From Microbacterium croceum (GTDB lineage: Bacteria; Actinomycetota; Actinomycetes; Actinomycetales; Microbacteriaceae): a DNA stretch of 64,000 nt. Shown piece by piece: positions 47,442-61,267 of this stretch (the stretch's first letter is position 1; each line of letters begins with the position of its first letter). Under the pieces are notes generated by a model, which ran no database searches, had not been told where the DNA came from, and was given only the letters and a program-made list of their open reading frames with translations. A program made the position numbers and the translations under genes. The stretch lies in NCBI RefSeq assembly GCF_023091245.1, contig NZ_JAHWXN010000002.1, positions 496,001 to 560,000 of the forward strand, written 5' to 3'.

Positions 47442-48101
47442 ATGTCCCTCGTCCGCGTGCACAACTTCTCGGTCTCCCTCGACGGCTTCGGCGCCGGCGA
47501 AGGGCAGACCCTCGAGGCGCCGTTCGGCCACGCCGACTCGCGCCTGATGCAGTGGGCGTTCGGAACCCGCACGTTCCGCGAGATGGGACTGCCCGGTCCG
47601 ACCCCCGGCTCCACCGGCGTCGACGATGCGTTCGCCCGCCAGTGGGGACCCGGCATCGGCGCGGAGATCATGGGGCGCAACAAGTTCGGCCCGCAGCGTG
47701 GTGCGTGGGAGGACGAGGAGTGGCAGGGGTGGTGGGGCGATGAGCCCGTCTTCCGCACTCCGGTCGTGGTGCTGACGCATCACCCGCGACCGACGCTGGA
47801 GATGGCCGGAGGCACCACGTTTCACTTCGTCGACGCCGATCCCGTCGACGCACTGGCGCAGGCGCGTGCTCTGGCCGGTGACGGCGACATCCGCATCGGC
47901 GGAGGCGTCGACACCGTGCGGCAGTTCCTCGCTGCCGACCTGATCGACCACCTGCACATCGTGCTCGTGCCGATCGTGCTCGGCCGCGGCGAACGCCTGT
48001 GGGACGGACTGGAAGGACTCGAGGAGCGGTTCGACATCGCGGCGACGCCGTCACCCTCCGGCGTCGTGCACCTGGTGTTCACGCGGCGATCCGCGCGGTG
48101 A
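47442..48101 (+). CDS. RibD C-terminal / DHFR-family reductase
   Basis: A 219-residue protein with the dihydrofolate-reductase-like fold seen in RibD C-terminal domains (FSVSLDGFGAGEGQ near the N-terminus, IGAEIMGRNKFGPQRG near 75, and GGVDTVRQFLAADLIDHLHIVLVPI near 147). NADPH-binding reductases of this group act on varied substrates; the true substrate is unknown. It starts at the ATG at 47442 behind GGAGATGA. It follows the iron operon but has its own promoter candidate and a terminator cluster downstream. Confidence 0.8.
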   Translation: MSLVRVHNFSVSLDGFGAGEGQTLEAPFGHADSRLMQWAFGTRTFREMGLPGPTPGSTGVDDAFARQWGPGIGAEIMGRNKFGPQRGAWEDEEWQGWWGDEPVFRTPVVVLTHHPRPTLEMAGGTTFHFVDADPVDALAQARALAGDGDIRIGGGVDTVRQFLAADLIDHLHIVLVPIVLGRGERLWDGLEGLEERFDIAATPSPSGVVHLVFTRRSAR

Positions 48102-50244: not shown

Positions 50245-50320
50245 TGGACGCGACGGCGGGAGTCGAACCCGCAACGCCACCAGGTATGAACTGAGGCCCG
50301 GGACCGCCCGGATCGCCGCG
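50245..50320 (-). tRNA. Atypical tRNA-like gene, anticodon CAT
   Basis: A 76-base minus-strand sequence ends with encoded CCA. All seven acceptor pairs form (CGCGGCG with CGTCGCG, one G-U), and the T-arm is a normal GCGGG TTCGACT CCCGC. A 4-bp anticodon stem with loop TTCATAC gives anticodon CAT (50286-50288). It departs from normal tRNAs: position 8 is A, the D-arm is a CCGG hairpin without the usual features, and the anticodon stem has an outer mismatch. Numbering still fits 76. A following terminator suggests it is transcribed. Could be a degenerate tRNA-Met/Ile2 or another structured RNA. Confidence 0.45.
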
Positions 50321-52926: not shown

Positions 52927-54372
52927 CTACCGCCGAATAGAGTCCTGGAAGGGGTTCGGTTCGAGCGTGTAGTCCGTGGACGCGTCGGACCAGGTGCCGC
53001 CGTCGGCCGGCTGACGTCTCCGGCGCACCGCGGCGAGCGCACCCGTGACCGGGACCCCGACCGCGAGTGCCGCCGCGCCCCGCACGGTGCGGTCTTCGGT
53101 GCCGAGCACGCTCGCCCGATGCCAGGCGTCGTGCAGCGCGCCGCCGCGTGCCGCCGGCACACGCTTCGCGGGCAGGGCCCCCGCGCGGCGGAGGGCGACG
53201 AGCTGCTCGACGCGTTCCCACCACGTCGACTCGGATTCGGGGTGGAAGTAGTTGTCGCGCAGCCAGTCCGGATGCGGATGCCGGAACCTCCCCGCGACGA
53301 CCTCGCTCCGCCCACCGAGAAGCCCGCTCCCCACGAACACCGTGTTCAACAGGCTCTTGCTCACCCCGAACGAGTCGAGCGCGATCACCGGAATGCCCAG
53401 GGCTGTCGCCTCGATCGCGGCCGTGGAACTCACGGTGACGAGCCCGGCTGCGCTGTCGAGCGCCGAGGCCATCGAGTCGTAGGAGAAGACCAGGTTGTCG
53501 GGTCGCTGCTCCGGCAACAGCTCCGCATAGGGCGCGCACTCGAGGTGCGTCTCGGACTCCCCCGGCCGGGAGCGCAGCTTCACGACCACGCGCCTTCCCG
53601 GATCGGCCTCGGCCGCACGCACCAGCATCGCCGCGATCTCCGCACGCTCCGCGCGCTCGACCGGCACCAGGGCCTGCGCGGCGAACACGATGTCGGTGGC
53701 CGCGGGCCGCACCGCGACGGGAGTCGACGGACGCTCGGCCACCACGACAGCGCCCTGGCTCCGCGCCACGGCATCCACGCGTACGTGCTCCGGCTTCAGC
53801 ATCCGCTGTCGCCGCCGCGCGAAGGGCAGTGTGGCGAGCGCGGTGGGGAGCGTCACGCCGATGCGTCGCCCCAGCTCCGCGAAGGCGCGCTGCTCGCGGT
53901 GGGAGTGCAGGATGAGCAGATCGGTGTGGCGGCGGTAGTCCAGGGCACCGCGCTGCGCGGGGATCGCCATGCCGGGAAGTCCGGAGATCGTGACCGGCCG
54001 GTGGGTGAGCGCGTCGATCACACGCCCCAACAATCGTACGAACGGCCCACGCCCGGCGAGCAGCACGACGTCGGGCCGCTGCCCTTCGAGCCAGGCCTGC
54101 ACGTCGGCGAAACGCACACGGGTGACCGCATCGGCCGCCATGCCGGTTCCGGCCAGCGCCGTGCGCTGCTGATCGACGCTCGCGGTGAGAGGTGTGCGCA
54201 CCAGCAGCAGGTGCGCACGGATGCCGGGCACCGCACCGAGCAGCGACGCCGACCATTTCACGAACGAGTCGGCATCGGCAATCGCGACGACCCGCAGTCC
54301 CTCGTGACTCCTGGGTGCCCCGCTCATGCGCTCTCCGGTCATGCGCTCTCCGGTCATGCGGTCTCCTGTCAT
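52927..54372 (-). CDS. DUF6716 putative glycosyltransferase
   Basis: The 481-residue protein ends the nonulosonate cluster. It resembles DUF6716 putative glycosyltransferases: GT-B-like with ADADSFVKWSASLLG near the N-terminus, and a C-terminal NLVFSYDSMASALDSAAGLVT followed by VSSTAAIEATALGIPVIALDS, a motif of nucleotide-sugar-dependent capsule enzymes. The start region holds three full copies of a 15-bp repeat, giving in-frame ATGs at 54372, 54357, 54342 and 54327. The first overlaps the neuB stop by 4 bases. No membrane segment. Acceptor unknown. Confidence 0.7.
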   Translation of the reverse strand: MTGDRMTGERMTGERMSGAPRSHEGLRVVAIADADSFVKWSASLLGAVPGIRAHLLLVRTPLTASVDQQRTALAGTGMAADAVTRVRFADVQAWLEGQRPDVVLLAGRGPFVRLLGRVIDALTHRPVTISGLPGMAIPAQRGALDYRRHTDLLILHSHREQRAFAELGRRIGVTLPTALATLPFARRRQRMLKPEHVRVDAVARSQGAVVVAERPSTPVAVRPAATDIVFAAQALVPVERAERAEIAAMLVRAAEADPGRRVVVKLRSRPGESETHLECAPYAELLPEQRPDNLVFSYDSMASALDSAAGLVTVSSTAAIEATALGIPVIALDSFGVSKSLLNTVFVGSGLLGGRSEVVAGRFRHPHPDWLRDNYFHPESESTWWERVEQLVALRRAGALPAKRVPAARGGALHDAWHRASVLGTEDRTVRGAAALAVGVPVTGALAAVRRRRQPADGGTWSDASTDYTLEPNPFQDSIRR

Positions 54373-54375
54373 GCG
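54318..54375. repeat. Tandem 15-bp repeat at start of DUF6716 gene
   Basis: A 15-bp unit (ATGCGCTCTCCGGTC on the plus strand) repeats with small changes, giving four ATGs in frame on the minus strand. Copy-number change would alter the N-terminus by 5 residues at a time (MTGER) without shifting frame. Confidence 0.65.
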
Positions 54376-55241
54376 GTGATGCGACGCAGCTTCGCCATGG
54401 GGGCCAGCTCACTGTCGAAGACGCGCTTGACACCGTCACCCAGTGCCGTCTCGATCACGCGGATGTCGCGCACGAGGTGCTCGAGTCCGGTCGGCTCCAG
54501 CGAGGCCGCGTGGTCGGAGCCCCACATCGTGCGGTCCAGAGTGATGTGGCGCTCGACAGCGACCGCGCCGATGGCCACGGCCGCCAGCGAGATCTGCAGT
54601 CCGCGTTCGTGGCCGGAGTAACCGATCGGGACGCCGGGGTAGCGGTCGCGCAGCGTGGCGATCGCCCGGAGATTCGCCTCTTCCGGTTCCAGCGGATACG
54701 TCGAGGTGGCGTGCATGAGCACGACACGGTCGGTGCCGAGCGTGTCGAGCGCGCGGTCGATCTGCGCGATCGTCGACATCCCGGTGGAGAGGATCACGGG
54801 CTTGCCCGTCGCCCGCAGCGCCTGCAGCAGCTCGGTGTCGGTGAGGCTGGCCGAGGCGACCTTGTGAGCCACCACGTTCAGGTCCTCCAGGAAGTCGACG
54901 CTCGGCACGTCCCACGGCGAGGCGAACCAGTCCAGGCCCTGCAGCGTGGCGTGGTCGCCGATCGCGACGTACTCGTCACGGCCGAACTCCACCCGGCGAC
55001 GGTAGTCCAGGTAGCTCATCGTGCCCCACGGGGTCTCCCGCGGCACGTCGCGCATGTGCTCGGGCGTGGAGATCTCGGGGGTGCGCTTCTGGAACTTCAC
55101 GGCATCCGCCCCGGCGCGCGCGGCGACGTCGATCAGACGCCGGGCGATATCGACATCACCATTGTGGTTCAGGCCGATCTCGGCGATGACGTAGGCGGGA
55201 TGACCGCCTCCGATGACGCGCGATCCGATGCTGACAGTCAT
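54369..55241 (-). CDS. NeuB-family nonulosonic acid synthase, short form
   Basis: NeuB enzymes condense PEP with a mannose derivative to make sialic acid, legionaminic acid or Kdn (or the 9-phosphates). The 290-residue TIM barrel begins VIAEIGLNHNGDVDIARRL (17-36) and has AVKFQKRTPEISTP, TSTYPLEPEEANL and IGYSGHERGLQISLAA, all NeuB hallmarks. It lacks the roughly 60-residue C-terminal SAF (antifreeze-like) domain of most NeuB proteins. It overlaps the DUF6716 gene by 4 bases. Substrate cannot be read; no NeuC epimerase gene is near. Confidence 0.88.
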   Translation of the reverse strand: MTVSIGSRVIGGGHPAYVIAEIGLNHNGDVDIARRLIDVAARAGADAVKFQKRTPEISTPEHMRDVPRETPWGTMSYLDYRRRVEFGRDEYVAIGDHATLQGLDWFASPWDVPSVDFLEDLNVVAHKVASASLTDTELLQALRATGKPVILSTGMSTIAQIDRALDTLGTDRVVLMHATSTYPLEPEEANLRAIATLRDRYPGVPIGYSGHERGLQISLAAVAIGAVAVERHITLDRTMWGSDHAASLEPTGLEHLVRDIRVIETALGDGVKRVFDSELAPMAKLRRITA

Positions 55242-55335
55242 GATTCCTCCGGTCGTCGAGCGGTCTGAGATCCCCGCCCCTCCTGGCTACGCCTCGCGGG
55301 TGAACGCCATGCGACCGAAGAGTTACCGGCACCGG

Positions 55336-56520
55336 TCAGCTCGACAACACCCGCTCGATGAGCTCTCGCACAGCCCCGTGTCCTCCGCGCCGGGTGAGCA
55401 CGACGCGCGCCTCCTCGAGTACGAGCGGATGCGCGTCGGCGACGGCCACCGGCCACCCCACGATCCGCATCGCGGGAAGGTCGTTGACGTCGTTGCCGAG
55501 ATACGCGATATCGTGCAGCGCGACGCCGACCTCCTCCGCCCATCCACGCAGCGCCGACTCCTTGTCGTCGATGCCGTGCAGCACGGGCACCCGCAGCTTC
55601 TCGGCTCGCGACCGCACCACCGGGTTGACCTCGGTGGAGAGGATCAGCATCGGCAGCCCCGCCCGGCGCAGCAGCGCGACCCCCATCCCGTCCTCGCGGC
55701 TCACCCGCACGCGTTCCCGCCCGTCCGCGTCGACGAGGGCGGTGTCGTCGGTGTGCACGCCGTCGAAGTCGGTCACGACCGCCTGCACGGCGATCCGCTC
55801 GACCTTGTCGTGCCGCGCGGCGAGCGCCCTGGCGATCTCGAGCTGCTGCGCGTCGTCGATCTCGATCGCCGACCACTCCGGCACCTCGGCGATGCGGATC
55901 CGGCCGAAGAAGCGATGCCTGCTCTCGCGGAAGCCATCCGCCCGGAAGACGTAGAAGGCGCCGGTCTCGAGATGGTGCGGCTCCCGGTCCTGACGCCGCG
56001 GACGATGCGCGGCCTCGTGGTTGATCGCGACCGCCGCGCCGTCGGTATCCCGGCGCCAGAGGAACCCATACGTCGCGTGCGCCGAGAACACGCTGTCGGC
56101 ACGACCGGCCGCGACCTCGGCGACGGCCGCGGCGAGCGCGTCGCTCGGGATGAACGGCGACGTCGCCTGGAGAAAGGCCACGATGTCGTAGTGCTCGCCC
56201 TGCGCCTCGAACTCGTCGAGCGCGTGCAGGATCGCGCTCTCGGACGACGCCGTGTCACCCGAGATCTCGGCGGGGCGGCGCATCACGCGTGCTCCCGCGG
56301 ATGCCGCGACACCGGCGATCTCGTCGTCGTCGGTCGACACGACCACCCGCTCGATGCCCGCCGCCAGCGCCGAACGCACACCCCGCGCCACCAGGGCGAT
56401 CCCGCCCACGCGCTGCAGGTTCTTACGCGGGACGCCTTTCGACCCGCCGCGCGCCGGGATGATCGCCACCGTGCGCGGGGGCGCGTCCGTCATCACCTGT
56501 TCGGCGTTGTCGATCATCAT
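55336..56520 (-). CDS. CMP-nonulosonate synthetase fused to HAD phosphatase
   Basis: A bifunctional 394-residue protein. Residues 1-235 are an acylneuraminate/Kdn cytidylyltransferase: VAIIPARGGSKGVPRKN at 18-34, FLQATSPF at 117-124 and ETGAFYVFR at 185-193. Residues 245-394 are a KdsC-like HAD phosphatase: TDFDGVHTDD at 250-259, ILSTE at 293-297, Lys320 and LGNDVNDLP at 341-349. The phosphatase could remove a 9-phosphate from the NeuB product before CMP activation. The ATG at 56520 overlaps the previous gene by 4 bases. A 94-bp gap precedes neuB. Confidence 0.88.
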   Translation of the reverse strand: MMIDNAEQVMTDAPPRTVAIIPARGGSKGVPRKNLQRVGGIALVARGVRSALAAGIERVVVSTDDDEIAGVAASAGARVMRRPAEISGDTASSESAILHALDEFEAQGEHYDIVAFLQATSPFIPSDALAAAVAEVAAGRADSVFSAHATYGFLWRRDTDGAAVAINHEAAHRPRRQDREPHHLETGAFYVFRADGFRESRHRFFGRIRIAEVPEWSAIEIDDAQQLEIARALAARHDKVERIAVQAVVTDFDGVHTDDTALVDADGRERVRVSREDGMGVALLRRAGLPMLILSTEVNPVVRSRAEKLRVPVLHGIDDKESALRGWAEEVGVALHDIAYLGNDVNDLPAMRIVGWPVAVADAHPLVLEEARVVLTRRGGHGAVRELIERVLSS

Positions 56521-57878
56521 CGTCCTCGCATCACTCGCCACACCCGTGCTGCACGGTTCCGCGCCCCGAGAGCCGTCAGCCGCCACTGCTCCACCCGCCC
56601 CACTCCCCCCGCGGAGCGCAGCATCCGTCGCACCGGCCTCTCGGCGGGCGCTCCAGGCAGACGCAGGAGCGACAGCCGCTCGGGGGCGAAGTAGCGGTCG
56701 CGCTCCGACGGGGCCAGCGTACGCAGCAGTAGTTCGGCCCGCGGCCGCAGGTGCCCGGCGATCTCCGGCTGCATGGCGTGGCCGAGCGCATCGATCAGCA
56801 GCTGCAGGTGCGCGGGATCCGCGGCGGGGACATCGTCGCGGGTGAGTGCATCGACGATCGCCAGCGGCACGCGGTTGCTGTTCTCGAAGGGCGCCAACCG
56901 CGCGAGGAGGCGCGTCGTCCCCGCCGATCCCACCGGAATGCCGAGCGTCGCCCGCACGGTCGGCAGCGCGGTCGAGAACCCCGCCACCACGGCGACCGCG
57001 TCGATCCGCTCGGCGAGCACCTCGGCGGGCAGCGCTCCGCGATACTCGGCGTACTCGAGCCCGAGCGAGAGAACCCGCTCTCTGACGGCATCCGACTGCA
57101 GCGGCGGCGCGGCGGGGTGCGCCTTGAACACGACTCGCTGCGGCGACCACGTCATCGCGCGATCGACCAGGTCGCGGTGCAGAGCCGCCTCCTCGCGGAC
57201 GGACAGCAGCCCGAGCGCCGACAGGTACTGGCCCAGCACGAGCACGGTCGGCACCGCGTCGTCCAGCGCCGCACCCGAGGCATCGACCACCGGTGCACCG
57301 GAGTCGGTCTCGCGCAGCACCTGCTGGAAGCGACTCGGCGGCACCGGGAGCGGGGTCGCGAAAGGCGATCCGACCAGCGGCCGCACTCCCGGCACCACGT
57401 CGGCGTACACGACCTGCCCGATCCGCGCGGCGACCAAACGACCGAGTGCGACCCGCATCGGCGAATAGGTCATCAGCCCGTCGCCGATGATCGACAGCCG
57501 CGCGCGCGGGAAGATCGACATCAGCGTCCGCGCGGGCGCCACCTGAGGGCTCTGCACGAACAGCTCCAGGTCGCCGGGGTCGATACCCCAGGCGCGCGTG
57601 AGCAGCTTCTCCAGCAGCGGCAGATCCGCGTCGGACGGCTGCCAGTCGCTCGGATGCTGCGCTCCCAGCAGCACCCCGAGGTCTTCGACGCGGTCGAATC
57701 GCCCCCGCAGCGATTCCAGCGACGGGTCGATGCCGATGCCCACCACGGTCTCGGGCACCCGGGCCGAGACGAAGGGGACGAGCACGCGGTCCGCCGCGTC
57801 GCCGAGAAGGCCCTCATCGATCGCCGCGACGGCGGTCGCGAGTCCGTAGGTGCTGTGCACCGCGAACAGCTGAGTCAT
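56517..57878 (-). CDS. Polysialyltransferase-family glycosyltransferase
   Basis: The 453-residue protein resembles the bacterial alpha-2,8-polysialyltransferase family that extends nonulosonic acid chains. It starts MTQLFAVHSTYGLATAVAAI, has an IIGDGLMTYS patch near residue 131 (like the D/E-D/E-G motif), VVFKAHPAAPP near 250 (the HP motif) and VAGFSTALPTVRATLG near 306 (the serine-rich motif). It overlaps both flanking genes by 4 bases (ATGA). No membrane segment is clear. Exact linkage cannot be inferred. Confidence 0.65.
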   Translation of the reverse strand: MTQLFAVHSTYGLATAVAAIDEGLLGDAADRVLVPFVSARVPETVVGIGIDPSLESLRGRFDRVEDLGVLLGAQHPSDWQPSDADLPLLEKLLTRAWGIDPGDLELFVQSPQVAPARTLMSIFPRARLSIIGDGLMTYSPMRVALGRLVAARIGQVVYADVVPGVRPLVGSPFATPLPVPPSRFQQVLRETDSGAPVVDASGAALDDAVPTVLVLGQYLSALGLLSVREEAALHRDLVDRAMTWSPQRVVFKAHPAAPPLQSDAVRERVLSLGLEYAEYRGALPAEVLAERIDAVAVVAGFSTALPTVRATLGIPVGSAGTTRLLARLAPFENSNRVPLAIVDALTRDDVPAADPAHLQLLIDALGHAMQPEIAGHLRPRAELLLRTLAPSERDRYFAPERLSLLRLPGAPAERPVRRMLRSAGGVGRVEQWRLTALGARNRAARVWRVMRGR

Positions 57879-58885
57879 CGCGCCTGCCCTGAGCCGCGGA
57901 GGCTGGAGGCGAGCACTCGGCGGCGAGGACCGTCGAGCCGGGCCACCGCCGCCTGCACCTCGGCGTGCGGCAGACGCTCGAGCAGGCCGCGGATCGCGGC
58001 CCGCATCTCGCCGCGCAGCGCGCGGGGCATCCGACGCGATCGCACCAGATGATGAGAGCTGAGCGCGAGCGCCGTCCACACCGCCTTGGGCAGGAACCGC
58101 TGCGACTCCGGATCGATCTCGACGAGGTCGACGACCTCCGACATGGCCCGGGCGAAATCCAGCTGTCGTCGATCGCGCACCTGTGTCAACGAGGTCGAGA
58201 CACCGCGACGATAGAGCAGCGCCGGGGCATCCACCACCGCGAAGGACTCCGCCTGCAGGTGCAGCCGCCAGATCCAGGGCCGGTCCTCCGCCGTGAACAG
58301 CCCGGGCGAGAACCCGGCCAGGCCGTGGTCGATCACCCGGCGATGGAAGATCCCCGCCCACGCGAACGGGTAGTCCACCATCGTCGACTCCGTGTCCGGA
58401 AGGATCGCCTCACGCGGCGGCACGAGCTGCTCGCGCCACGGGTGCGGTGCCCGCACGAGCGTACGCACCCCGTCGCGAACCGTCACATGGTCGGTACGGA
58501 CGAAATCGGCACCGAGGTCCCGCAACCGCGTCGCCAGCACGGCCAGGCGCCCCGGCTGCATCCAGTCGTCGCCGTCGACGAAGCAGAACGACTCGGCCTC
58601 GACGAGCGCGAGCCCCTGGTTGCGGGCGCTCGCGAGTCCGCGAGGCGCAGGATTCACGATCACCTCGGCATTCGCGAAGCGCGCGGCGTAGCGGCGCATG
58701 AGATCCCCAGTCCCGTCGTGGGAGCCGTCGTCGATCGCGACGAGCTGGAGCGCCGAGGGGTCGTCGAACTGCCGCAACAGGGTCTCCAGCGTCGTCGCGA
58801 TGTACGCGCCGGCGTCCTTCGCGGGCAGGATGACGGTGACGAGCGGTCTGCGCACGGAACTCCCGGGGGTGGACGGTGCCCGCAT
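57875..58885 (-). CDS. Family 2 glycosyltransferase
   Basis: A 336-residue GT2 enzyme, the first gene of the cluster. VTVILPAKDAGAYIATTLETLL (21-42, broken at TLETLL) opens the nucleotide-sugar-binding fold; IDDGSHDGT and FCFVDGDDWM supply the acidic metal-binding motifs near 60 and 106. The C-terminal half is Arg-rich. I used the ATG at 58885 (MRAPSTPG); no better start lies upstream. It probably makes a linker or alternating sugar for the nonulosonate glycan. Confidence 0.82.
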   Translation of the reverse strand: MRAPSTPGSSVRRPLVTVILPAKDAGAYIATTLETLLRQFDDPSALQLVAIDDGSHDGTGDLMRRYAARFANAEVIVNPAPRGLASARNQGLALVEAESFCFVDGDDWMQPGRLAVLATRLRDLGADFVRTDHVTVRDGVRTLVRAPHPWREQLVPPREAILPDTESTMVDYPFAWAGIFHRRVIDHGLAGFSPGLFTAEDRPWIWRLHLQAESFAVVDAPALLYRRGVSTSLTQVRDRRQLDFARAMSEVVDLVEIDPESQRFLPKAVWTALALSSHHLVRSRRMPRALRGEMRAAIRGLLERLPHAEVQAAVARLDGPRRRVLASSLRGSGQAR

Positions 58886-58976
58886 GGTCTCAGTCGCGCA
58901 TGGCGGGATGCTGACGCCGCGGTAAACGCGGGGTGTCCTGGTCACGGGACCCCCGCGGATCGGCGACGATGGACAG

Positions 58977-59870
58977 ATGCTCTGGTCTCGGCACTCGCAC
59001 GGTCGCCCGATGCGCCGCCGCGTGCGCGAGACGGACGAACTGCGTTGGTTCACCGCACGGGCCTGGACCACGCGGTGGTATCCGCAGGGCATCGATGTGG
59101 GCGCGTGGCGCGGTCGACGCACTCTCGCGGTGAGCTGGTTCCGGCAGGACCGCAGCGGCAGTCACCTCGCCTCCCGTGTGGTGCTGATCGACCTGCAGCG
59201 CTCCCGCCACATCGACATCGCCCTCGCGATCGAGGAGGACGGCGAGCTGCAGCCCGCCCGCATCCACACCGGAGGGATCGCGTGGTTCGGTGATCGGCTG
59301 TTCGTCGCGGCGACCACGCAGGGCATCTGGGAGTTCGACCTCAGTGCGGTGCACGAGGTGCGGGGTGCCGTCGCGCGACGCGTGCGCGGGATCTCGGGAC
59401 GTCGTCCCGGCGCGCGGTCGCTCGTGGCGGTGCGCACGCGGGTGCACCCGGTCGCCCTGCGCTGCTCCTTCCTCGGCCGCGTGTACGACGAGGACGGCAT
59501 CTCCCTGCCGCGGGTGCTGATCGGCGAGTTCCGCTCGGATGACCGCGGTCGTATCGGCGAGTTCGCGATCCCGTCCGGCGCAGACGGTGAGTTCGAGGAG
59601 AAGGACCGGTTCGTGCCGGGCATCGGCCACATGCAGGGCGCGGTGCGCGGGGGCGACCAGGTCTTCGTGTCGCAGTCCGACGGGATGCGACCCGGCACGC
59701 TGTGGTCAGGACCGGTCGGAGCCCTGACCCCGCACGCGTACCGGCTGCCCGTCGGCTGCGAGGACCTGGCGCTCGACCCCGAGGCGAGGATGCTGTGGTC
59801 GCTGGGCGAGCATCCGCGCAAGCGCGTGGTCCGCGGCATCCCCTTCGCATGGATCGGGCTCGAAGGCTGA
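58977..59870 (+). CDS. Conserved hypothetical protein near glycan cluster
   Basis: A 297-residue protein of no family I can name. It is rich in beta-strand-forming segments with repeated DRLFVAATT/ DQVFVSQSD/ EARMLWSLGE-like blades, which would fit a propeller. No signal peptide. It diverges from the GT2 gene and shares a 91-bp gap. A GACGAT box 6 bases before the ATG suggests a leaderless mRNA. Its position hints at a role with surface glycans, but that is only context. Confidence 0.65.
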   Translation: MLWSRHSHGRPMRRRVRETDELRWFTARAWTTRWYPQGIDVGAWRGRRTLAVSWFRQDRSGSHLASRVVLIDLQRSRHIDIALAIEEDGELQPARIHTGGIAWFGDRLFVAATTQGIWEFDLSAVHEVRGAVARRVRGISGRRPGARSLVAVRTRVHPVALRCSFLGRVYDEDGISLPRVLIGEFRSDDRGRIGEFAIPSGADGEFEEKDRFVPGIGHMQGAVRGGDQVFVSQSDGMRPGTLWSGPVGALTPHAYRLPVGCEDLALDPEARMLWSLGEHPRKRVVRGIPFAWIGLEG

Positions 59871-60286: not shown

Positions 60287-61267
60287 TCAGCCGGCGAACG
60301 CCCAGAACAGCGCGCCGGCGTAGAGCAGTGACGTCAGCGACGTGAGCGCGAGGGCGATCACGAGTTCGCGCGGCTGACGGTAGGTCCAGACGATCAGCAC
60401 CGCGGGCAGTCCCGCCAGCAGCGCCAGCAGAGAGATCCAGGCGATCGGGAACACCAGCGCGAGGAACACGGCGATCCCGAACGGCACCAGGATGAACAGC
60501 GTGAACAGCACCTGGGTCGCGCGGCGGCCGATCAGCACGGTGAGCGTGCGCTTGCCGACCTCTCGGTCCTGATCGATGTCGCGCAGATTGTTCGCCAGCA
60601 GCACGGCGCAGGCGAACAGGCCGGCGGCGACCGCCCCGAGCCAGGCCTGCTGCGGCAGCTGGAACACCTGCACCCACGTGGTGCCGAGCGTGGCGACCAG
60701 GCCGAAGAACACGAAGACGAAGACCTCGCCCAGACCCGCGTAGCCGTAGGGCCGCTTGCCGCCGGTGTAGAACCACGCGGCCACGATGCAAGCCGCACCG
60801 ACCGCCAGCATCCACCACTGCTCGGTGCGCACCACGATCGCGAGGCCGACGAGAGCCGCGAGTGCGAAGAAGCTCAGCCCGATGATCAACACCGTGCGGG
60901 GCTTCACCCGCCCCGAGGCGGTCAGTCGCGCCGGTCCCACGCGCACGGCGTCGGTGCCGCGGATGCCGTCGCTGTAGTCGTTCGTGAAGTTCACGCCGAT
61001 CTGCAGCAGCACCGCGACGGCGAGGCACGCGAGGGCGATCACCCAGTGGAACTCCGGTCCCGTGCTGCGCGCCGCACCGGAGCCGATGATGACCGGAGCC
61101 GCGGCGAGCGGCAGCGTGCGCAGTCGCGCGGCGCCGATCCAGTCCGCGGCCGTGACCGGTCCGGCTTCGACGACGGGGCGTCGAGCAGGGTTGCCGCTGG
61201 TGCGACTCGGGGTGCGCGGGGTGCTCTTGGTGCGCGCAGAACTCTTGCGCTTCGACGATGCTGCCAC
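60287..61267 (-). CDS. menA: 1,4-dihydroxy-2-naphthoate polyprenyltransferase
   Basis: MenA attaches the polyprenyl chain to 1,4-dihydroxy-2-naphthoate in the membrane. The 326-residue protein has a basic, disordered 35-residue N-terminus and then eight or nine helices. Motifs NFTNDYSDGIRGTD (about 95) and NNLRDIDQDREVGKRTL (about 228) carry the Asp pairs that bind prenyl diphosphate. The GTG at 61267 lies 7 bases after TAGGAT (61275-61280), probably leaderless. It completes the visible menaquinone genes. Confidence 0.93.
   Translation of the reverse strand: MAASSKRKSSARTKSTPRTPSRTSGNPARRPVVEAGPVTAADWIGAARLRTLPLAAAPVIIGSGAARSTGPEFHWVIALACLAVAVLLQIGVNFTNDYSDGIRGTDAVRVGPARLTASGRVKPRTVLIIGLSFFALAALVGLAIVVRTEQWWMLAVGAACIVAAWFYTGGKRPYGYAGLGEVFVFVFFGLVATLGTTWVQVFQLPQQAWLGAVAAGLFACAVLLANNLRDIDQDREVGKRTLTVLIGRRATQVLFTLFILVPFGIAVFLALVFPIAWISLLALLAGLPAVLIVWTYRQPRELVIALALTSLTSLLYAGALFWAFAG

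Follow-up and report, generated by a model that had tools for sequence, protein, structure and literature searches.

The window analysed here, a stretch of 64,000 nucleotides, comprises positions 496001–560000 of contig C2 of the Microbacterium croceum genome (3.68 Mb, 3 contigs) and contains a compact cluster of five minus-strand genes at 52927–58885, for which the sugar 2-keto-3-deoxy-D-glycero-D-galacto-nononic acid (Kdn) is the predicted product. From its upstream end, the cluster encodes a GT2 glycosyltransferase (57875–58885; 336 amino acids (aa); PF00535, 3e-24), a polysialyltransferase-like enzyme of GT-B type (PST; 56517–57878; 453 aa; PF07388, 1.6e-13), a fusion of a cytidine monophosphate (CMP)-nonulosonate synthetase with a KdsC-type HAD domain (NeuA-HAD; 55336–56520; 394 aa; PF02348, 1.3e-22), a NeuB-family synthase without SAF domain (54369–55241; 290 aa; PF03102, 4.1e-79) and a DUF6716 GT-B protein (52927–54372; 481 aa; PF20471, 2.4e-123). 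All five proteins exceed their Pfam cut-offs, and the profile searches returned the families proposed in a preliminary description of this DNA, including that of the glycosyltransferase matching PF07388 above the gathering score. The layout given there, five minus-strand genes joined mostly by 4-bp overlaps, was also recovered in position and family: with the starts chosen here, 4-bp overlaps occur at three junctions (57878/57875, 56520/56517 and 54372/54369), and at the fourth a gap of 94 bp (55242–55335) separates NeuA-HAD from NeuB. As in Kdn-type teichulosonic-acid clusters, genes for NeuB, NeuA, a HAD phosphatase and two or more transferases of matching family lie together here.

Synthase, phosphatase and precursor supply

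In the Pfam search the window NeuB matched the NeuB barrel but not SAF; the protein is at most 95% identical to named Microbacterium proteins, and neither for it nor for the fusion did an NCBIfam equivalog score over its cut-off. Thirteen key active-site residues are listed in excerpts of PMC6795526. Compared with the Neisseria enzyme, the window NeuB retains E25, K53, Q55, K129, Y186, S213, H215, E234, H236 and D247 and replaces N74, T110, F112 and N184 with T, S, W and S, while F288 and the SAF residue R314 of the Neisseria enzyme fall outside the aligned segment; barrel and catalytic residues place the protein in the NeuB family. The same excerpts state that Arg314 of the SAF-like domain places the N-acetyl group of N-acetylmannosamine (ManNAc), that the R314A enzyme is inactive, and that mannose is not accepted by the Neisseria enzyme and mannose-6-phosphate (Man-6-P) is accepted by the human one (PMC6795526). 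Because Arg314 positions the N-acetyl group of ManNAc, a SAF domain is expected where such a group needs holding. A more distant second NeuB, paired with NeuC in locus L046 (genome G022) and the only one scanned, carries SAF (21.2 bits, cut-off 21). A Man-6-P-specific Kdn-9-phosphate synthase has been characterised in an alga, according to an excerpt of PMC6200933, and the window NeuB is predicted from its sequence to be a Kdn-9-phosphate synthase using Man-6-P and phosphoenolpyruvate (PEP).

The nearest structure to the HAD half of the fusion is 3mmz and the next is 3e81, with KdsC proteins coming after these. We take 3mmz, whose HAD sequence is 100% identical to that of Streptomyces loci, to be a Streptomyces avermitilis protein, and 3e81 to be BT1713, the Kdn-9-phosphate phosphatase of Bacteroides, with 4hgq and 4hgr as its mutants. 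By comparison of sequence letters, 4hgq differs from 3e81 by E56A and 4hgr by E56A/K67A. Equivalents of E56 and K67 are present in the window, in 20/20 Microbacterium and in 80/80 Streptomyces homologues; 3n1u, the sole KdsC compared, has A and Q at these positions. Equivalents of 3e81 D10, D12, K80, D104 and D107 are likewise present in the window HAD, so that its letters at the catalytic aspartate pair, E56 and K67 read D, D, E and K. The D10/D12 letters are absent from one of the 20 Microbacterium rows, which we suspect to be that of L065, whose match spans only fusion residues 250–394.

The predicted 9-phosphate route and a HAD domain with E56 and K67 equivalents are shared with the Kdn pathway of Bacteroides thetaiotaomicron, which presumably comprises BT1713 and BT1715; 3e81 is a separate protein of 164 aa, whereas the window HAD is fused to the cytidylyltransferase. 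BT1714 is named for the same pathway in an excerpt of PMC6200933. The fusion as such is not new: vertebrate CMAS (CSS) has the same domain order, a cytidylyltransferase followed by a KdsC-type HAD (3ewi match), and a CMAS-type C-domain is reportedly found in some bacteria as well as in vertebrates (excerpt of PMC8636478). In that excerpt, mouse CMAS and its C-domain have no phosphatase activity (PMC8636478), whereas the window HAD retains the D10, D12, K80, D104 and D107 equivalents. The fused query was matched at 1e-40 by 19/396 genomes of the phylum sample, in 7/236 genera: 14 matches extend over residues 4–17 to 388–394 or more and cover both halves in full, four start at residues 128–164 and one (G497) covers the cytidylyltransferase half only, twice. 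The fusion is predicted to work like a Kdn-9-phosphate phosphatase, a functional assignment distinct from formal membership of NCBIfam NF058599, and is also a predicted CMP-Kdn synthetase.

The genome encodes one NeuB and one NeuA; a second genome match to CTP_transf_3, which overlaps a gene resembling GlmU by eye, was rejected as a NeuA. No NeuC had been noted near the cluster, and this extends to the genome as a whole, in which NeuC (TIGR03568) does not exceed its cut-off (68.8 and 40 bits against 235.9). The two Epimerase_2 proteins in the genome are wecB (251 and 258 bits, cut-off 210), and the genome has no match to N-acetylglucosamine 2-epimerase (AGE). Comparison across the genus found a synthase of the window type (at least 73% identity) in 89 of 149 sampled Microbacterium genomes; NeuB was matched at 1e-10 in 94, from which five with only relatives of at most 43% identity were excluded, and in one of the 89 (G091) the synthase is in two pieces. 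NeuC was over cut-off in eight of the 89 synthase carriers, and 57 lacked all three of NanE, NeuC and AGE at scores above cut-off (54/83 at completeness of at least 90%); NanE matches under the cut-off, in 11 genomes, are not counted here, and with them 49/89 would be without any route. The manA gene was over cut-off in 148/149 genomes. A known ManNAc supply is therefore dispensable for carriage of the synthase, and Man-6-P is nearly always available.

Across all 149 genomes NeuC was over cut-off in nine (G017, G022, G023, G069, G078, G083, G087, G089 and G147; loci including L043–L046), in each case at most 0.2 kb from a second NeuB that shares no more than 43% identity with the window NeuB. 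In L046 an aminotransferase-like gene, identified by eye, precedes the NeuC/second NeuB pair, which suggests a legionaminic-acid-type pathway. For the window cluster, Kdn made from Man-6-P is the best reading of the product. The earlier proposal of Kdn fits the SAF-less NeuB, the HAD residues and the supply pattern, but has to accommodate a NanE elsewhere in the genome.

Relatives in Streptomyces and Microbacterium

The PST-like protein exceeds the gathering score of PF07388 and has a polysialyltransferase fold, its best fold match being the bacterial polysialyltransferase 5wc6/5wcn (15–16% identity), presumably from Mannheimia. The same five families, PST-like, GT2, DUF6716, NeuA-HAD and NeuB, stand side by side in most of the Streptomyces loci compared, in an order that fits part of the teichulosonic-acid region reported for Streptomyces coelicolor, SCO4873–SCO4882 (Ostash et al. 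2014). These loci were the best 80 of 519 relatives of a 3mmz HAD query, all titled Streptomyces, a bias that follows from the choice of a Streptomyces HAD as query; NeuA-HAD is present by construction (80/80), NeuB was found in 80, PST in 77, GT2 in 77 and DUF6716 in 76. The order PST−, GT2−, DUF6716+, NeuA-HAD+, NeuB+ was observed in 71/80 loci, PST and GT2 diverging there from DUF6716, NeuA and NeuB, whereas in the window all five genes lie on one strand with DUF6716 after NeuB. Among the loci listed, Streptomyces NeuB is 65–66% identical to the window NeuB, and the gene adjoining PST is 41–44% identical to the window GT2; DUF6716 proteins of the window and Streptomyces share 30–33% identity. 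Both PF07388 and PF20471 were confirmed by Pfam in Streptomyces locus L067.

Excerpts of three papers label SCO4877 as hypothetical, SCO4878 as glycosyltransferase family 2 or putative glycosyltransferase, SCO4879 as hypothetical, SCO4880 as putative transferase and SCO4881 as NeuB (PMC8269224, PMC2267785, PMC2367054), with a discrepancy of one gene in that PMC8269224 places the sialic acid synthase at SCO4880. The five-gene order fits SCO4877–SCO4881, an assignment made by order and published labels and not from S. coelicolor DNA, and the window GT2, a candidate backbone sugar transferase, is likely the counterpart of SCO4878. An excerpt of PMC13011467 describes SCO4873–SCO4882 as a teichulosonic-acid cluster and a PhoP target, and the Streptomyces teichulosonic polymer is given, again in excerpts, as galactose (Gal) and Kdn, often with N-acetylglucosamine (GlcNAc) or methyl (PMC11481543, PMC7831098).

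These comparisons bear on the transferases. The window PST is a candidate Kdn transferase and shares the fold of 5wc6/5wcn, but the polymer associated with its counterpart in Streptomyces is a mixed one of Gal and Kdn. The preliminary description supposed that this enzyme would polymerise Kdn; a mixed chain is more probable than a pure Kdn one. DUF6716, whose Pfam name is putative glycosyltransferase, is a putative core glycosyltransferase; no signal emerged when its profile was compared with that of the PST-like protein (0.3%). The cluster is not novel in kind, being known from Streptomyces and common in Microbacterium. In open-licence PubMed Central papers, those on Kdn and nonulosonic acids in actinobacteria at large not included, we found no description of DUF6716, of a Microbacteriaceae Kdn cell wall or of a Microbacterium polysialyltransferase; the preliminary description had supposed the combination to be little described in this genus. 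A paper on umbrella toxins has the word teichulosonic a single time, among its references.

Within Microbacterium, the core consists of NeuA-HAD and NeuB, with DUF6716 in 19 of the 20 fetched loci, and PST and GT2 vary between species. A protein of ~320 aa with a WVESPLQ start replaces PST and GT2 upstream of NeuA-HAD in L056 (3887–4846), L065 (4669–5604) and L059 (before 4797). It had no convincing Pfam match in L056 and L065, the two scanned, and its SPLQ segment may resemble that of GT52-type sialyltransferases. L066 (G043) represents a second set in one genome, with a NeuB of 73% identity, a NeuA-HAD on the opposite strand, a polysaccharide pyruvyltransferase (PF04230), no DUF6716 match and a weak partial GT2 match (27%) that was not counted as GT2. 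The fusion appears as two overlapping pieces in L050.

Direct repeats in the cluster gaps

According to an excerpt of PMC7244524, a PHO box consists of direct repeats of GTTCACCC in which 9 bp lie between the CA pairs; we read this as an 11-nt period. For the mycobacterial PhoP, an excerpt of PMC4832192 states that it recognises repeats of 7 bp separated by a spacer of 4 bp. We scanned for three 7-mers at 11-nt spacing, scored against GTTCACC (maximum 21), and found three sites scoring at least 15 among 127,942 positions of the window, two of them in the two gaps of the cluster. Site 1 (58910–58938, minus strand; GGACACC/GTTTACC/CGTCAGC; 15/21) lies 25–53 bp before the GT2 start used here, and site 2 (55299–55327, minus strand; GGTAACT/GGTCGCA/GTTCACC; 15/21) lies in the 94-bp gap before NeuB. 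The third, outside the cluster at 48076 on the plus strand, scores 16 (GTGCACC/GTTCACG/GATCCGC). The site 1 score was reached by 0/300 dinucleotide shuffles and the site 2 score by 4/500 mononucleotide shuffles. When the letters of the motif were permuted (420 permutations), no arrangement but GTTCACC scored 15 in each of the two gaps; CGTTCAC, which is the motif shifted by one base, ties with it on summed score (30).

In the relatives, a site of at least 15 precedes GT2 in 9/10 loci with GT2 and lies in the NeuB gap in 7/10 of those with PST and GT2, counts that are not independent, the loci being related by descent. In L060 and L065, two loci without PST and GT2, sites of 18 and 16 precede the first genes of the operon. 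Among 53 Streptomyces regions of 41–499 bp between divergent GT2 and DUF6716 starts (other loci gave none), 37 reach at least 15, whereas 60 control permutations gave a median of 0 and at most 28 such regions. We take control of the cluster by PhoP to be likely, and the repeats predict induction under phosphate starvation, as reported for Streptomyces. PHO-box-like repeats in both cluster gaps, conserved in close relatives, are new here.

The gap holding site 1 is shared with a divergent plus-strand gene (58977–59870) encoding 297 aa. Its product has no Pfam or NCBIfam match, and homologues of 64–90% identity stand beside GT2 in 6/20 fetched Microbacterium loci.

Proposed pathway and alternatives

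We consider it likely, with some reserve, that the five genes produce CMP-Kdn and, with it, a cell-wall glycopolymer of teichulosonic-acid type that contains Kdn and no phosphate, and that PhoP induces them. In this model, whose substrate, order of transfer, ligation and regulation we infer from the observed families, gene set and repeats, the SAF-less NeuB would condense ManA-derived Man-6-P with PEP to Kdn-9-phosphate, the 9-phosphate would be removed by the HAD half of the fusion, and the cytidylyltransferase half would yield CMP-Kdn. Kdn would then be added by the PST-like GT-B enzyme and the partner sugar by GT2, alone or together with DUF6716, so that the chain would be mixed and not of Kdn only. 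Ligation of the polymer to peptidoglycan would fall to an LCP protein encoded outside the cluster (the genome has three LCP matches), and PhoP, acting on the two sites of 11-nt repeats, would induce the genes under phosphate shortage.

By such a model the Kdn cell-wall system published for Streptomyces would extend to Microbacterium (synthase in 89/149 sampled genomes). It also offers a sequence rule, a SAF-less NeuB adjoining a NeuA-HAD with the E56/K67 pair, by which database proteins named 'N-acetylneuraminate' or 'legionaminic acid synthase' could be re-examined. The distribution test of precursor supply, the phosphatase residue test, the split into core and variable genes and the PHO-like repeats are added here, and the regulatory prediction is testable by one low-phosphate culture.

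Several observations weigh against the model and are considered here with the alternatives. The presence of a SAF domain is no bar to Man-6-P, given that the human synthase, which has one, uses this substrate, and an enzyme without SAF is not necessarily a Kdn enzyme, as 6ncs, likewise of 290 aa, was deposited as a sialic acid synthetase. The fusion matches the NCBIfam KDN-9-phosphatase NF058599 at 4.9e-30 but with 104.8 bits, below the 180-bit cut-off, and is not classed as that equivalog. In addition, NanE is encoded in the genome (PF04131, 142 bits; over the NCBIfam cut-off) and is over cut-off in 23/89 synthase carriers. The product might accordingly be N-acetylneuraminic acid (Neu5Ac) as in mammals, NanE providing ManNAc-6-phosphate, NeuB Neu5Ac-9-phosphate and the HAD and cytidylyltransferase halves CMP-Neu5Ac, which a PST of the PF07388 family and polysialyltransferase fold would polymerise or transfer. 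We regard this as unlikely, since NanE stands in a catabolic-looking setting, in 57/89 carriers no known ManNAc route (NanE, NeuC or AGE) exceeds its cut-off, the window synthase lacks the SAF arginine for placing the N-acetyl group, and the specificity residues of the Kdn-9-phosphate phosphatase are retained. At the NanE locus (L008; G000:C1:445000–458000) the neighbouring genes resemble, by eye, those of an ABC sugar transporter, a GntR regulator, a ROK kinase and a DHDPS-type protein; NCBIfam has no match for the DHDPS-type one, and the setting is possibly one of amino-sugar or sialic acid catabolism. ManNAc could also come from DUF6716 if this protein were an unrecognised epimerase with the fold of UDP-GlcNAc 2-epimerase, standing in for NeuC, which we think highly improbable. 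The proteins compared are all small GT-B proteins, whose shared fold shows no function (Foldseek also matches the polysialyltransferase 5wcn), hhalign matches only a 42-residue segment on the nucleotide side (11.9%), and the Pfam name points to a glycosyltransferase. Moreover, 32 sequences have no invariant acidic residue at 102–150, where GDT, EAG and PEENR motifs would be expected; the residue alignment of DUF6716 with WecB is unreliable in the N-domain and was not used as proof.

The destination of the sugar is a further point at which the wall-polymer model may be questioned. No export gene was identified, a genome-wide search for such genes not having been made. The five genes include no ligase, flippase or transporter, and the transferase part differs between Microbacterium species, as might be the case if CMP-Kdn were made to decorate a capsule, an exopolysaccharide or a glycoprotein; we give this little credence, the five-gene set matching a Streptomyces region that publications link to a glycopolymer of the wall. 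As for the regulation taken by itself, the GTTCACC-like repeats might have arisen by chance or bind another response regulator. Both cluster repeats are imperfect (15/21), L054 has no site before GT2 (best 11, reached by 208/300 shuffles), and the site in the NeuB gap is weaker (13) in 3/10 relatives with PST and GT2 and falls short of 15 in all nine measured loci lacking PST and GT2 (L066 left out). Further sites of at least 15 lie outside the cluster, at 48076 in the window and at L048:1028, L057:8452, L063:7195 and L066:10254 in the loci of relatives, and the shared ancestry of close relatives means that conservation is not independent evidence. This explanation is doubtful, though to be taken seriously: the scores are reached by 0/300 and 4/500 shuffles, no other of the 420 permutations attains 15 in both gaps, and the 37/53 Streptomyces regions exceed all 60 control permutations.

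Taken across the genus, the loci may represent a modular Kdn wall-polymer system induced by phosphate starvation, in which a constant core stands under PhoP-type direct repeats and the polymer-building transferases (PST and GT2; the ~320-aa protein; the pyruvyltransferase set) are swapped between species, a tentative proposal that we hold with slightly less than even confidence. If true, the wall polymer would save phosphate and differ from species to species, and DUF6716 would represent a Kdn-linked family of transferases not described before.

Elsewhere in the window, MenA, a 1,4-dihydroxy-2-naphthoate prenyltransferase over its NCBIfam cut-off, is encoded near the cluster (60287–61267, minus strand), and the only tRNA gene found by ARAGORN is a tRNA-Met (CAT) at 50245–50320 on the minus strand.

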